A stretch of 64,000 nucleotides of DNA from Rhodobacteraceae bacterium EhC02 (GTDB lineage Bacteria > Pseudomonadota > Alphaproteobacteria > Rhodobacterales > Rhodobacteraceae): assembly GCA_001650895.1 (NCBI GenBank), contig LXYH01000004.1:1-64000 (forward strand), read 5' to 3'. Of the stretch, positions 5,430-64,000 are shown one piece after another. The first letter of the stretch is position 1. Each line of letters opens with the position of its first letter. The notes under the pieces are model-generated. The model searched no databases. It saw nothing but the letters and a program-made list of their open reading frames with translations, and was not told the DNA's origin. The translations under genes were made by a program, and so were the position numbers.

Positions 5430-7304
5430 ATGAGCAAACCGACAGACAACCCCGCCGATCCGTTCAAGAAAGCCCTGGCCGAGGCGACCAAGGTCATGGC
5501 CCATGACCCGGAGCTGACCATCAGCTATTCGGTCGATCCATCGGGCCTGTCGGGCGATGCGATGCGCCTGCCCCAGGTCAGCCGCCGCATGACCCGCGAC
5601 GAGGTGCTGCTGGCGCGCGGCACGGCCGACGCACTGGCGCTGCACCGCCGCTATCACAACGATGCCACCCACGCGCGCTATGCCCCGCCGGGGCAGATGG
5701 CACGCGAGCTTTACGAGGCGATGGAAACCGCCCGCTGCGAGGCGATGGGCGCGCGCGACATGCCCGGCACCGCCGGCAACATCGACGCCAAGATCGCGCA
5801 TGAGGCCACGCGCGCGGGCTATGATCAGATCACGCAGGCCTCGGACGCGCCGCTGGCGACTGCCGCGGGCTACATGATCCGGCATCTGGCCACCGGGCGT
5901 CCCCTGCCCGCAGGTGCGCAGAACGTCATGGAACTGTGGCGCGGCTTCATCGAGGATCAGGCCGGCGGCACGCTGGACGCCTTGCAGGACAAGCTGTCCA
6001 ACCAGGCCGAATTCGCCCGTTTCGCCCGCAAGGTGATCGAGGATCTGGGTTACGGCGATCAGCTGGGCGATGACCCGGACCAGCCCGACGACGATCAGGA
6101 CGATGCCGAGGACAGCGCCGAGCAGCAGGAAGACCCCGACAGCAGCGGTCAGGACGACCAGCAGCAGGAAGAGGCCGAAGCCAGCCCCGAACAGTCCCAG
6201 GACGACAGCCAGGACGCAAGCCAGGCACAGGTCTCGATGGACGAGCTGGCCGATCAGGAAATGGGCGAGGATACGGAACTGCCCGATGGCGAGGCCCCGC
6301 TGGAGCCGCCCGCGCCGCAGCCCATATCCGATGCGGACCCGAACTATGCCGTCTATGCCACGGATTTCGATGAAGAAATCCTTGCCGAAGAGCTGGCCGA
6401 TCCGGTCGAGCTGGAACGCCTGCGCGCCTATCTGGACCAGCAGCTGGACCCTCTCAAGGGGGCCGTGGGCCGTCTGGCCAACAAGCTGCAGCGCCGCCTG
6501 CAGGCACAGCAGAACCGGTCCTGGCTGTTCGACATGGAAGAAGGCATTTTGGATGCGGGCCGCCTGGCGCGGGTTGTCGCCAACCCCACCACGCCCCTGT
6601 CCTTCAAGGTCGAGAAGGACACCGAATTCCGCGATACGGTGGTGACGCTGCTGCTGGACAACTCGGGCTCGATGCGGGGCCGCCCCATCTCGATCGCGGC
6701 GATCTGCGCCGATGTTCTTGCGCGCACGCTGGAACGCTGCTCGGTCAAGGTCGAGATCCTGGGCTTTACCACCCGCGCCTGGAAAGGCGGCCAGAGCCGC
6801 GAGAAATGGCTGGCCGAAGGCCGTCCGCAGCAACCCGGCCGCCTGAACGACCTGCGCCACATCATTTACAAATCCGCCGACGCGCCATGGCGGCGGACCC
6901 GGTCCAACCTGGGCCTGATGATGAAGGAAGGGCTTCTGAAGGAAAACATCGACGGCGAGGCGCTGGAATGGGCGCATCGCCGCATGATCGGCCGCCCCGA
7001 GGCGCGCAAGATCATGATGGTGATCTCGGACGGTGCGCCGGTGGATGATTCCACCCTGTCGGTGAACCCGGCCAATTACCTTGAAAAGCACCTGCGCGAC
7101 GTGATCGCCATGGTCGAAAAGCGCCGCGCCGTGGAACTGATCGCCATCGGCATCGGCCATGACGTGACGCGCTACTACCAGCATGCAGTGACCATCACCG
7201 ATGTGGATCAGCTGGCCGGCGCCATGACCGAACAGCTGGCGGGCCTCTTCGACCGCGACCCGCGCGCCCGCGCCCGGATGCTTGGCATGAAAAGGGCCAT
7301 GTAG
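5430..7304 (+). CDS. cobT: cobaltochelatase subunit CobT
   Basis: A 624-aa partner of CobS. Residues about 1-205 form the N-terminal domain. Residues about 210-300 form a strikingly acidic, Gln/Asp/Glu-rich linker. The C-terminal part is a von Willebrand A domain with the MIDAS motif DNSGSM at about residue 410 and [10 protein letters not shown] further on. In the chelatase, CobT and CobS form a chaperone-like ring that drives CobN. The ATG at 5430 follows AGAGGTGAG; an in-frame upstream ATG at 5376 lacks family similarity. The gene ends one base before pepP starts, so the two are likely co-transcribed. Confidence 0.97.
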
Positions 7305-7305
7305 G

Positions 7306-9108
7306 ATGTTTCAGACGTTCGAGGAAAGCGCCCGCCCCGAGCAGGGCCCACCCCGGCTGGCCGCGCTTCGCGACCATCTTGCACGGGCGGGGCTGACGGG
7401 GTTCCTGGTGCCCCGCGCCGATGCCCATCAGGGCGAATATGTCGCCCCGCATGATGCGCGGCTGGCCTGGCTGAGCGGTTTCACCGGATCGGCGGGCTTT
7501 GCCTGCGTGCTGCCGCATGTGGCGGGCGTCTTCATCGACGGGCGCTATCGCACCCAGGTGAAAGGCCAGGTGGACCTTGCCCATTTCACCCCCGTGCCCT
7601 GGCCCGAGACCGGGCTGGCCGACTGGCTGTGCGCGCAATTGCCCAATGGCGGCGTGATCGGCTTCGATCCCTGGCTGCACACCGCCGAAGAGATCGGCAA
7701 GCTGGAAGAGGCGCTGTCGGCCAGCGCGATCACTCTGAAGCCTGTCGCCAATGCGGTGGACAGTATCTGGCCCGATCAACCCGCGCCGCCGACAGGCCCG
7801 ATCACCCCCTACCCCGAGGATCTGGCCGGCGAGACGAGTGCGTCCAAACGCGCGCGGCTGGCCGAGGTGCTGCGCGCGGCGGGACAAGGCGCGGCGGTGA
7901 TCACGCTGGCCGATTCCCTGGCCTGGCTGCTGAACGTGCGGGGCAGCGATATCCCGCGCAACCCGGTGCCGCATGGCTTTGCCCTGCTGCATGACAACGG
8001 GCACCTGACCCTCTACACCGATCCGGTGAAATGCGACGACGCCTTGCGCGAACATCTGGGGCCGCAAGTGACGCTGCGCCCGGTCACCGCCTTCGGCCCC
8101 GGCCTGCGCAGCCTGTCCGGCCCCGTGCGGGTGGACCGCGCCACGGCGCCGCTTTGGGTCTCGATGGAACTGGCCGAAGCGGGCGTCGCCTGCGCCTGGG
8201 GTCAGGATCCCTGCATCATGCCCAAGGCCACCAAGACCAGCGCCGAAATCGCCGCCACCACCGAGGCGCATCTGCGCGATGCCGCCGCCATGGTGGAATT
8301 CCTGTGCTGGTTCGATGCGCAGGCGCCCGGCAGCCTGACCGAGATCGACGTGGCGACCGCACTTGAAGGCTTCCGCCGGGCCACCAACGCGCTGCGCGAC
8401 ATCAGCTTCGAGACCATCGCGGGCACCGGCCCCAATGGCGCGATCATGCATTACCGCGTCTCTCGCAGCAGCAACGCGCGGCTGGAATCGGGCCATCTGA
8501 TCGTGGTGGACAGCGGCGGGCAATACCTGGACGGCACCACCGACATCACCCGCACCCTGCCTGTCGGTGAGGTTGGCGATCTGGAAAAAGCCTGCTTTAC
8601 CCGCGTGTTGCAGGGCATGATCGGCATTTCGCAGCTGCGCTTTCCCAAGGGGCTGGCCGGGCGCGACATCGACGCCATCGCCCGCGCGCCCCTGTGGGCC
8701 GCGGGGCTGGATTTCAACCATGGCACCGGGCATGGCGTTGGGGTCTATCTGTGCGTGCATGAAGGCCCGCAGCGGATCAGCCGCGTGTCCGAGGTGCCGC
8801 TGCAACCCGGCATGATCCTGTCGAACGAGCCGGGATACTACCGCGAGGGCGCCTTCGGCATCCGTATCGAGAACCTTATCGTGGTGCGCGAGGCCCCTGC
8901 CCTTGCCGGCGCCGATGATCGCGCCATGTTCAGCTTCGACACGCTGACATGGGTGCCGATCGATCGTCGCCTGATCCTGCCCGGCCTCATGACCGCGCAG
9001 GATCGTGCCTGGCTCAACAGCTACCATGCCGCATGTCTCGACAAGATCGGCCCTCGGATTTCGGATGCGGCACGGGTATGGTTGGCACAGGCAACCGCCC
9101 CGCTGTGA
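7306..9108 (+). CDS. pepP: M24 family Xaa-Pro aminopeptidase (aminopeptidase P)
   Basis: A 600-aa member of the large three-domain aminopeptidase P group, which releases an N-terminal residue preceding proline. Two creatinase-like N-terminal domains precede the C-terminal pita-bread catalytic domain. The dinuclear metal ligands are visible: the Asp of VVDSGGQY and of TTDITRT, the His of HGTGHGVG, the Glu of LSNEPGYY and the Glu of GIRIENL. The start ATG overlaps the end of cobT within one base. It has no signal peptide, so it is cytoplasmic. The symbol follows common usage; the natural substrate is not shown. Confidence 0.93.
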   Translation: MFQTFEESARPEQGPPRLAALRDHLARAGLTGFLVPRADAHQGEYVAPHDARLAWLSGFTGSAGFACVLPHVAGVFIDGRYRTQVKGQVDLAHFTPVPWPETGLADWLCAQLPNGGVIGFDPWLHTAEEIGKLEEALSASAITLKPVANAVDSIWPDQPAPPTGPITPYPEDLAGETSASKRARLAEVLRAAGQGAAVITLADSLAWLLNVRGSDIPRNPVPHGFALLHDNGHLTLYTDPVKCDDALREHLGPQVTLRPVTAFGPGLRSLSGPVRVDRATAPLWVSMELAEAGVACAWGQDPCIMPKATKTSAEIAATTEAHLRDAAAMVEFLCWFDAQAPGSLTEIDVATALEGFRRATNALRDISFETIAGTGPNGAIMHYRVSRSSNARLESGHLIVVDSGGQYLDGTTDITRTLPVGEVGDLEKACFTRVLQGMIGISQLRFPKGLAGRDIDAIARAPLWAAGLDFNHGTGHGVGVYLCVHEGPQRISRVSEVPLQPGMILSNEPGYYREGAFGIRIENLIVVREAPALAGADDRAMFSFDTLTWVPIDRRLILPGLMTAQDRAWLNSYHAACLDKIGPRISDAARVWLAQATAPL

Positions 9109-60402: not shown

Positions 60403-60486
60403 GGGCGACAGGCCGCAAGGTGTGGCAGGGGACTGTAACTCCCTCGCGGAGACGCACGCCTGGTTCGATTCCAGGGTCGCCCACCA
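60403..60486 (+). tRNA. tRNA-Tyr (anticodon GTA)
   Basis: The acceptor GGGCGAC (60403-60409) pairs with GTCGCCC (60476-60482), discriminator A and encoded CCA (60484-60486). The anticodon loop is CTGTAAC on a GGGGA/TCCCT stem. A long variable arm (GCG-GAGA-CGC) and T arm CCTGG/CCAGG around TTCGATT fit a class II tRNA-Tyr. Position 8 reads A where U is nearly universal. Confidence 0.95.
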
Positions 60487-60569
60487 TTTTTCTCAATCTA
60501 TAAATCGGTATATGCAGGTCGTCAGGCCTACTGGCGTAGCCTTCAGTTTTTGCGTTCAGTCATGCACAA

Positions 60570-60612
60570 GGAAAGGCAGCCAAAGTCAACTTTGCTGCCT
60601 TTCCATTTCAAT
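60570..60612. terminator. terminator between tRNA-Tyr and the convergent glycan gene
   Basis: GGAAAGGCAG (60570-60579) and CTGCCTTTCC (60595-60604) pair, extended inward by CAAAG/CTTTG around a TCAA tetraloop with one bulged C. ATTTCAATCTT follows on the plus strand. Confidence 0.65.
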
Positions 60613-60633
60613 CTTGCGACCTCCTGTAGTTAA

Positions 60634-62883
60634 TCAGGATTCATGGCGTCGCTCCCGACGTCTCCGACGTGCGTTAAGGCGAACACGATTGAGTTCACTC
60701 AATATAATTTGAAATTCACTGCGTCCTTTTGTCTTTTTTGGGTGTTCTTTCGCAGCGCTCTCGCCAGCCGGTACGGTCAAACGACCCGCTCTTGGGGTCG
60801 ACATATGTTGAACCGCTTTGTCAATCGAACAGCCAGACTTCTCGAACACAAATCGCCACTGCAAGATATTGGACTTGATTGGGTTGTCTCTCAGAAGTTC
60901 AACTTTAACAAAAGGAAAACCTCGACCAACCAGATAGTCCCAGTAGGTATGGGTTATGTTAAGGTTACCGTACTCTTCCTGACGAGCTCCGGGAAATAAT
61001 TCTTCCATCGGATACATGATCTTATGGGACAGGCCGAAATCGAAGCGAACCCTCGACAGTAAAGTCAGTTCGAAGGCCTGAATAACCTCTTCCTTGCTAC
61101 TCAGAACCGGAAGGTTGCTCAAATAACTCTGCAGACCAGGCTCGCGCAGAGCGTTCTCCTGAAACATGACGAAATAGCTCTGGGCATGGTGCGCCTGCTG
61201 AAACGACTCAGTTACTCCAACGAAGTCTGCATCTTGGGAGCGCATTTGCTCCAAGAAATCAGGCAGCAAATTTGGCAACAAAAACATACTGTCATTTGCC
61301 AGAAAGACCCGTCGCGCCCCCCAGATCTCTGGAAGCAGTCGAAGCCCCGAACTCCAGGTAGGGAAATCAAATCCACCGTTTTTTCGAATAACAACACCAG
61401 ACGCCGAAGAAAGGTTGCTCAGGTCAAACGGCTTTGTGGGATCGTCAACTGCAATGCTGAGAACAACCTCAACCCCATTGGCTTTCAAATTATCAATGTA
61501 GTCGACAACTGCGCCCGTTAGCCTTAGATGCGATGAATAAGCTGCGAAAACGCAAACATCCTTATTCTTCAAATCATCTGGATGACGCAGAATGAACGCT
61601 TGGTTCGTGTCGGCACCAAGCATGCCCGCCTTCGCGGCTTTATCAGAAATTTCGGCATGGGTCTTGATTGCCATATTGATAAAATACGCGGGCTCACCGG
61701 CAAACTGAGCCGCAAGTTCAATCTCTTTCTGCATCGTTTCAATGGAGGCAGAAATCAATCTCAGTTGTTTATCCAATGAAGAATCGTTCAACCCTTCGAT
61801 CAGCCCGGCGTAAAGCAGCGAGCATCCGATCCAGGAAGGAAAGTTTTCATTGTCCAGGTCTTTACGCGCTCTCAGCCTCGGAAGAGGCTTCTCAACAGCG
61901 TCGAAATCAATGTCAAACTTCTCGCGCACAAGCGGTTTAAATTTCTGATAGAACCCATTCGCCCTTTCAAAATACCCCAGATTGTAACAGTCCTTCATCG
62001 CACGATAAAGGGCGCCGCTGGCAACGTGCTGATCTGCATTCTCGGAAAGCTTTTCGAGGTAATCAAGATAGATCGGCCAGTCGGAGAACCCCTCATTAAT
62101 GGTCGGAAGTTCAACCCGAGAAGCCCAAACAAACAGGCGATGACCAGCGTCATGGACGACGACGTGTTCAAAACCGCAACGCAACAGCAGGTCTCGCATA
62201 GCATCCGCGGATGAAACGAAAAAGTGGAAACCCGGCGAAAGAGTCGCAAGCAGAAGCAGATAATCGCTTGAAGGCAACAGCACCGAAGCACTTGGAGTCG
62301 TCAAAACCAAAATGCCGTCATCGGCAAGAGCCTGCGAGATCTCCTTGATGAAGGCCTCCGGGTTCTCGACATGCTCGATCACTTCGCTGCTGTACACGTA
62401 ATCAAACTTTTTACCGTGCAACTCGGCGGCCTCGGAGTAGTATTTCGGCACAATGTTGACGCCTAGTTTCTCAGCACCAACCCGACCATAGCTGCTCATT
62501 TCAAGACCAACAGCTTCGCCGCCGATCATTTCCTTCCAGAAATGTGGAACAAACCCAAAACCGCAACCAATATCGAGAAGCGAGCCACTTTTCTCTTTCT
62601 CCAATGAAAACAATGGTTCCAGCATTGCGCTTATTCCGGCACCATTCTGAACATAATTAAACCAATAGTTTTGCTCGAAACCTTCATAATTGTAACCAAG
62701 CACAGGTTGCTCGTTTACAAAGTATGCTGTCCCGCATTTACGGCATGAATTCATACACAATTCTTGTGGATCAAAAGAGCTGGCGCCAACTCTCAAAAGT
62801 GGAGAACTCTCGACGGCTCCACACATCGGGCAATGCTTTCGCAAGGCGCTAAAGTTGTGCTCACCGAATTCAATTTTAATCAT
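60634..62883 (-). CDS. zinc-ribbon SAM methyltransferase fused to an RgpF-like domain
   Basis: A 749-aa multidomain protein. Cys18/Cys21 and Cys47/Cys50 form a zinc ribbon. Residues about 95-250 are a class I SAM methyltransferase (LLDIGCGFGF at 102-111; YVYSSEVIEHVENPEAFIKE; ILVLTTPS). A helical linker follows, then from about 435 an RgpF/rhamnan synthesis F domain (VCVFAAYSSHLRLTG, RVFLANDSMFLLPNLL, FVGVTESFQQAHHAQSYFVMF, FPFVKVELLRDNP). The C-terminus is highly basic. RgpF-like domains serve in cell-surface polysaccharide assembly, so glycan synthesis with methylation is inferred. Base composition marks it as foreign. Confidence 0.82.
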   Translation of the reverse strand: MIKIEFGEHNFSALRKHCPMCGAVESSPLLRVGASSFDPQELCMNSCRKCGTAYFVNEQPVLGYNYEGFEQNYWFNYVQNGAGISAMLEPLFSLEKEKSGSLLDIGCGFGFVPHFWKEMIGGEAVGLEMSSYGRVGAEKLGVNIVPKYYSEAAELHGKKFDYVYSSEVIEHVENPEAFIKEISQALADDGILVLTTPSASVLLPSSDYLLLLATLSPGFHFFVSSADAMRDLLLRCGFEHVVVHDAGHRLFVWASRVELPTINEGFSDWPIYLDYLEKLSENADQHVASGALYRAMKDCYNLGYFERANGFYQKFKPLVREKFDIDFDAVEKPLPRLRARKDLDNENFPSWIGCSLLYAGLIEGLNDSSLDKQLRLISASIETMQKEIELAAQFAGEPAYFINMAIKTHAEISDKAAKAGMLGADTNQAFILRHPDDLKNKDVCVFAAYSSHLRLTGAVVDYIDNLKANGVEVVLSIAVDDPTKPFDLSNLSSASGVVIRKNGGFDFPTWSSGLRLLPEIWGARRVFLANDSMFLLPNLLPDFLEQMRSQDADFVGVTESFQQAHHAQSYFVMFQENALREPGLQSYLSNLPVLSSKEEVIQAFELTLLSRVRFDFGLSHKIMYPMEELFPGARQEEYGNLNITHTYWDYLVGRGFPFVKVELLRDNPIKSNILQWRFVFEKSGCSIDKAVQHMSTPRAGRLTVPAGESAAKEHPKKTKGRSEFQIILSELNRVRLNARRRRRERRHES

Positions 62884-63092
62884 TTTAGTAACTCCAACCT
62901 AGAGGTTTGACGCTTAGTAGCAGTCCAGTGTGCTTTTCGTTCACTGTACTGCAAGTCATTTAATCGTTTTAACTGCATCAGAGGTTATAGTCAGTAAATT
63001 AGCGCACCATTACGCCTATTTACGAACCGCATCGATCATAAACTTGATTGACTATAGACCTTTTTCTTTTTCCTCAAATCTGAACAACTCAT

Positions 63093-64000
63093 TCAGCCAT
63101 AGCTCTCTTCCGCGACCGATCGCGCCCCACCGAACTGCACGTCATGCAGCGCCTTGAACTTGCCGTCCTTGGCCAACAGTTCATCGACGGTTCCCTGTTC
63201 CAGGATCTGTCCCGCCTCGACATAGCAGATGCAATCGGCGTTCATCACGGTGGACAGGCGGTGCGCGATCACGATGGTCGTCACCCCTTCGGTGATCCGG
63301 GCCAGCGCATCGCGCACCAGGACCTCGGAATGGCTGTCCAGCGCGCTTGTCGCCTCGTCCAAAAGCAGGATCGGCGCGCGGCGCAACACGGCGCGGGCGA
63401 TCGACAGGCGCTGACGCTGTCCACCCGACAGGAAGGACCCGTTCTCGCCAATCTGGGTCTGATAGCCCTGCGGCAGCTTCTCGATGAACTCATGGGCATG
63501 GGCGATCTTCGCCGCCTCGACAACCTCGTCATCCGAGGCATCGGGCCGCGCCAGCCGCAGGTTGTCCATCACGGTGGCGGAAAACAGGAACGTGTCCTGC
63601 CCCACGAAGGCAATCTTGCTGCGCAATGACATGAACGTCGCCTTGGCGATATCCTGCCCGTCGATCAGCACGCGCCCCGCGACGGGATCGTAAAGCCGCA
63701 GGATCAGGTTCAGCAGCGTAGACTTGCCCCCGCCAGAGGGGCCGACAAGCGCCGTTGTCTTGCCGGCGGCAAAGGCTGTCGACACGCCATTCACCACGGC
63801 GGCCTTTTCATTATAGGCGAAATGCACATCCTCAAGCTGGACAGCGCCGGGCCCATCCTCGAGCGGCACCGCATCGGGATCCTCGGCCATGGTCATCGGC
63901 TGATCCAGCAGGTCATACATCATCTTGATGCCGACCATGCTGCTTTCGATGATCACCCGCATCCGCGACAGCCGCTTGGCGGGTTCATAGGCCATCAGGA
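63093..64000 (-). CDS. ABC exporter, ATP-binding part (5' end beyond the window)
   Basis: The last 302 codons of a fused permease-ATPase of the MsbA/lipid-exporter type; the frame stays open to the window edge, so the membrane domain lies outside. Visible: the end of the transmembrane domain (RLSRMRVIIESSMVGIKMMYDLL), Walker A VGPSGGGKST, Q-loop AFVGQDTFLF, signature LSGGQRQRLS, Walker B ILLLDEATSALD and the H-loop IAHRLSTV. The nearby glycan gene makes export of lipids or glycoconjugates possible, but base composition here is that of the core chromosome. Confidence 0.93.
   Translation of the reverse strand, partial: LMAYEPAKRLSRMRVIIESSMVGIKMMYDLLDQPMTMAEDPDAVPLEDGPGAVQLEDVHFAYNEKAAVVNGVSTAFAAGKTTALVGPSGGGKSTLLNLILRLYDPVAGRVLIDGQDIAKATFMSLRSKIAFVGQDTFLFSATVMDNLRLARPDASDDEVVEAAKIAHAHEFIEKLPQGYQTQIGENGSFLSGGQRQRLSIARAVLRRAPILLLDEATSALDSHSEVLVRDALARITEGVTTIVIAHRLSTVMNADCICYVEAGQILEQGTVDELLAKDGKFKALHDVQFGGARSVAEESYG

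Follow-up and report, generated by a model that had tools for sequence, protein, structure and literature searches.

A lone methyltransferase–RgpF fusion gene inserted beside tRNA-Tyr in Rhodobacteraceae bacterium EhC02, with a probable role in surface polysaccharide synthesis

The RgpF protein of Streptococcus mutans lengthens a rhamnose backbone, and phage adsorption is blocked when rgpF is mutated (PMC12178566), so that phage sensitivity can be affected by a change in a glycan of this kind. The dTDP-sugar methyltransferases TcaB9, KijD1 and MtmC are stand-alone enzymes of antibiotic-sugar pathways, which have a zinc-binding N-terminus and a C-terminal methyltransferase-associated domain. 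Azospirillum brasilense Sp7, whose LPS is reported to contain 2-O-methyl-D-rhamnose (PMC4153317), carries a gene pair made of a methyltransferase gene and an RgpF gene; the match between this pair and the methylated sugar is a correlation, not a proof. Here we describe a gene of Rhodobacteraceae bacterium EhC02 in which a methyltransferase and an RgpF domain are fused, a combination on which a literature search found nothing. The architecture is new as a fusion, whereas the pair of separate genes is already a known kind.

The gene lies in the window, i.e. the whole stretch of 64,000 nucleotides that was analyzed (contig LXYH01000004.1, positions 1–64,000). An A+T-rich segment (60487..63107), delimited by its composition and by comparison with empty sites, is flanked on the left by an intact tRNA-Tyr gene (gta; 60403..60486, + strand), detected by ARAGORN, and on the right by the 3' portion of a gene for an MsbA-like ABC exporter (63093..63998, − strand), recognized from the list of open reading frames, homology and the empty-site comparison. 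The G+C content of positions 60487–63092 is 47% (0.474) versus about 66% in the surroundings, which puts it roughly ten standard deviations off: among the 2606-bp stretches of the window before the segment, the minimum is 0.621 and the standard deviation 0.018. An earlier note on this DNA had described the segment as richer in A+T than both flanks, and its coordinates and list of domains proved correct as well. The only open reading frame of the segment starts with ATG and encodes a protein of 749 residues (60634..62883, − strand; open reading frame list, Pfam and alignment). Just downstream of it, a repeat search revealed an inverted repeat with 14-bp arms that are 93% complementary (60570..60604), possibly a transcription-termination hairpin; a terminator scan did not call it. 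No promoter was recognized for the gene by a consensus promoter scan, no RNA family was found in the segment, plasmids that were searched gave no DNA-level match to it, and the right-hand non-coding flank has no further copy in the rest of the genome. About 8 kb past the end of the window lies another lone A+T-rich gene (G000:C4:72122-73840; L053:8123-9841), with a G+C content of 0.45 in flanks of 0.61–0.71, which encodes a 572-aa AIPR-family protein (PADLOC AbiU, E 2.7e-68) without a match in the six other genomes of the genus.

Comparison with four congeners (G001, G002, G004 and G005) shows that the segment is an insertion between two old genes. In these genomes the same tRNA-Tyr and the same ABC gene are separated by about 70–170 bp without an insert, and the proteins encoded by the neighbouring TrmH and ABC genes are 84–93% identical to those of EhC02. 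Homology to the congeners ends at or near the 3' end of tRNA-Tyr and restarts at about 63108, among the final codons of the ABC gene. The insert thus begins directly at the tRNA 3' end or no more than a few bases from it, the exact breakpoint not being placeable because the native spacer varies between congeners, and ends at about 63105–63108. By hand translation, the ABC protein ends with RSVAEESYG here versus AE in G001, G002 and G004; the terminal ESYG and the stop codon after it come from the insertion, which hence gave the ABC gene a new stop. In a genome of another genus (G011), a gene for a family-10 glycosyltransferase (L060:8406-9485) occupies the slot that directly follows tRNA-Tyr, and the junction varies between genera.

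Relatives of the gene are rare. In a sample of 397 genomes of the family, drawn at about one per genus, matches at E ≤ 1e-20 were present in five, two of them full length (the source genome being included in both counts). Within the genus, a full-length homologue (58% identity) is present in one of the other six genomes, at a different place: it lies on a separate contig, where glycosyltransferase and acyltransferase genes share an A+T-rich region with it. Named genomes gave no relatives when scanned with the 749-aa sequence alone; with a three-sequence alignment as query, four loci with full-length fusions were found, in a Paracoccus haematequi metagenome-assembled genome (MAG), Yoonia vestfoldensis SKA53, the Rhodobacterales MAG LacPavin and the MAG MSM13, the last copy being judged the same as that of congener G004. 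All four have the same domain order, 42–57% identity and a G+C content low for the host, but each sits at a genomic place unlike that of the source; the MSM13 copy further differs in lying in the A+T-rich glycan region and in having no conserved basic tail. The Paracoccus copy (G+C 0.51) stands alone between an amidohydrolase gene and comF, which are direct neighbours in two congeners and in most of the family genomes read, so that the copy interrupts a junction conserved in the family. This junction and that of the source are therefore both shown to be insertions. The junctions of the Yoonia copy (G+C 0.46, between nucleotidyl transferase and lytic transglycosylase genes) and of the Rhodobacterales MAG copy (L092; G+C 0.54, lone, beside an sdhB-like gene) look like insertions too; of 20 relatives read in search of an empty counterpart to the Yoonia site, none has the nucleotidyl transferase gene beside the lytic transglycosylase gene. 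The unusual point is that the same gene is repeatedly a lone insert between unrelated old genes. The non-coding stretch upstream of the Paracoccus copy includes a sequence resembling, by eye, an insertion-sequence end. In Y. vestfoldensis SKA53, an MmeI-type restriction-modification gene (L093:13027-16494) lies about 2.8 kb beyond the fusion copy, possibly in a variable region. Genome G132 carries a gene for a 1077-aa sulfotransferase–GT2–RgpF fusion of low G+C content (0.50), which adjoins a DDE transposase gene (L080:4299-5249 and 5607-8840).

The empty sites in four congeners, the patchy and non-syntenic homologues and the outlying composition strongly support the gain of a single gene by horizontal transfer, as the earlier note had proposed. 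The gene is absent from the junction in close relatives, patchy elsewhere and foreign in composition, and conservation at the same place throughout the family was looked for and not found. We consider it most improbable that the gene is instead an old one of the family, inherited vertically and lost from most lineages: homologues do extend across the Alphaproteobacteria and the fusions do group as one clade in gene trees, but the flanks are closely spaced at the empty sites of the four congeners, no two copies share a location, the G+C content of the copies is low relative to each host, and the congener's copy is only 58% identical although the adjoining ABC protein is 88% identical. The order inside the fusion clade is weakly supported and tree discordance was therefore not used as evidence. 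Residues 1–340 are closest to the Paracoccus copy (69%) and residues 341–700 to the MSM13 copy (55%), a mosaic that hints at recombination between the halves. Gene transfer agents are common in Rhodobacterales and carry DNA pieces of about the size of the insert.

The neighbours of the insert seem to have little to do with it. Its start at the 3' end of tRNA-Tyr had led to the suggestion that this tRNA gene served as an integration site, and one may imagine the remnant of an integrase-borne island that entered there, its integrase and far attachment site having since been lost, the more so as the content downstream of tRNA-Tyr varies between genera of the family. Such an origin is quite unlikely: neither a repeat search nor a pattern search with two mismatches found the tRNA 3' end repeated at the far boundary, the insert carries its one gene and no integrase gene, no integrase was present among ten proteins encoded beside tRNA-Tyr in other genera, and no tRNA gene adjoins the other copies of the fusion gene. 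A role of tRNA-Tyr as integration site is thus not supported, and we regard it as a mere neighbour. The same holds for the ABC exporter gene, to which the fusion gene had also been linked. A partnership in which the fusion protein makes the glycan exported by the neighbouring ABC protein might be read from the adjacency of both genes on the same strand, and in Sinorhizobium fredii NGR234 a gene of the RgpF family adjoins an ABC transporter and rhamnose genes; yet four congeners keep the ABC gene at this place without the insert, and no other copy of the fusion was seen next to an ABC gene, which makes this explanation very unlikely. The ABC exporter gene is long established here, and there is no need to assume that it takes part.

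The 749-aa protein consists of (i) a zinc-ribbon region (residues 16–55; 62719..62838, − strand), in which C18, C21, C47 and C50, the putative zinc site, are invariant across all five homologues; (ii) a SAM-dependent methyltransferase domain (residues ~92–250; 62134..62610, − strand), assigned by PF13489 and by matches to sugar-methyltransferase folds; (iii) a linker predicted to be all-helical (residues ~269–418; 61630..62079, − strand); (iv) an RgpF domain predicted to have a GT-A-like glycosyltransferase fold (residues ~441–700; 60784..61563, − strand), assigned by PF05045, modelling and a fold search; (v) a basic helical tail (residues ~720–749; 60637..60726, − strand), RVRLNARRRRRERR, delineated from the alignment and models and shared by the Paracoccus and Yoonia copies. 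In Pfam, Methyltransf_23 (PF13489) matches residues 92–240 (E 1e-18, 68.1 bits versus a cut-off of 27) and RgpF (PF05045) residues 494–664 (E 1e-8, 34.5 bits versus a cut-off of 25), the latter match being also found in every full-length homologue examined; no zinc-ribbon family was significant, but the ribbon named by the earlier note is backed by its invariant cysteines. A PADLOC match to mad2 reflects the methyltransferase domain only and was set aside. The SAM motif DIGCGFG is conserved among homologues, and the protein has the features of a class I SAM methyltransferase. The five homologues further have in common an invariant H220, which lies in the first half, as well as N502, D506 and the invariant N530-D531-S532 of the RgpF half. 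The structure model of the full-length protein is weak (pLDDT 64); its first 18 PDB matches, all with low TM-scores, are to one kind of sugar methyltransferase, represented by MtmC, TcaB9 and KijD1. Modelled alone, the RgpF part fares better (pLDDT 79, pTM 0.77) and best matches GT-A glycosyltransferases, e.g. B3GNT2 and chondroitin polymerase, with TM-scores of 0.3–0.4 only, so that these matches show the class and not the specificity.

TcaB9, KijD1 and MtmC, which are sugar C-methyltransferases, are thus the best folds for the N-terminal part of the protein, and their zinc-binding N-terminus has a counterpart in its predicted N-terminal four-cysteine site. H225 of TcaB9 aligns with the invariant H220, but the position of TcaB9 E224 is occupied by F or Y in the fusions (F219 here), which consequently lack the active-site Glu-His pair, and Pfam did not find the C-terminal methyltransferase-associated domain of these enzymes, which also differ from the fusion in standing alone. 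With streptococcal RgpF of rhamnose-polysaccharide synthesis, the protein shares a PF05045 match above cut-off, its RgpF half being GT-A-like in fold; the match nevertheless spans only positions 21–197 of the 503-position profile, and the host is Gram-negative.

The closest unfused counterparts are pairs of neighbouring genes. In polysaccharide clusters on Azospirillum plasmids, one gene for each half follows the other: on plasmid p5 of A. brasilense, a methyltransferase (WP_035683271.1) and a rhamnan synthesis F family protein (WP_035683273.1), encoded among glycosyltransferase genes, correspond in their order to the two halves, with about 30% identity over 87% of the query. This pair differs from the present case in consisting of two separate genes of a polysaccharide cluster rather than one lone fused gene, and the p5 methyltransferase has a longer helical C-terminus. 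Of eight other alphaproteobacterial genomes with a relative of the methyltransferase, five have an RgpF gene directly adjoining it, both gene orders and both orientations being represented, and two have one within about 6 kb; none was found in the remaining genome. This recurrent pairing, together with the fusion described here, argues that both enzymes work on one product.

Homology, gene neighbours and predicted fold make it likely that the protein unites two enzymes of surface-polysaccharide synthesis, and we think it probable that the transferred lone gene encodes such a two-enzyme protein acting on the glycan of its host. The Pfam domains, the glycan-cluster neighbours of unfused homologues and the fold are in keeping with the surface-polysaccharide role proposed earlier. 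Methylation of a sugar, be it a nucleotide sugar or a residue of the chain under synthesis, would fall to the N-terminal zinc-ribbon methyltransferase, and the C-terminal GT-A-like RgpF domain would move a sugar, perhaps rhamnose, onto the host glycan, with the helical linker connecting both active sites and the basic tail possibly keeping the protein at the membrane. Most likely, an existing surface polysaccharide receives a methylated sugar in this way. The fusion gene of the source, in contrast to its unfused relatives, lies outside any glycan cluster; the host has other glycan genes, e.g. a region of contig 11 with NeuB-, RgpF- and GT2-family genes, making a substrate in trans plausible. 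The protein would thus work in trans, altering the outer chemistry of the polysaccharide that the host itself makes, tRNA-Tyr and the ABC gene being neighbours only.

What such a change would be good for is more conjectural. The gene could be a stand-alone surface-conversion gene that mainly hides or alters a phage receptor, in line with the recurrence of lone insertions, with the presence 9 kb away of the AbiU-like defence gene, also lone, A+T-rich and absent from congeners, and with the block of phage adsorption by rgpF mutations in S. mutans (PMC12178566). Since phage genomes that were searched contain no homologue, and since the gene could just as well serve adhesion or contact with a eukaryotic host, we regard this explanation as unlikely. 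Equally tentative, and on balance doubtful, is its extension to a mobile family of surface-conversion genes, in which one fused methyltransferase–glycosyltransferase would move singly between Rhodobacterales genera, insert between housekeeping genes although it carries no integrase, and alone rewrite the outer glycan, for instance hiding a phage receptor.

The locus shows the transfer of a single gene cleanly, with the empty sites available for comparison, and the same fused gene has relatives that entered unrelated junctions in other genera. Moreover, the fusion points to a working partnership between the methyltransferase and the RgpF glycosyltransferase where the genes are elsewhere separate neighbours, and this suggests a function, open to testing, for many such pairs that lack an assignment in the glycan clusters of Alphaproteobacteria, including those of Azospirillum.
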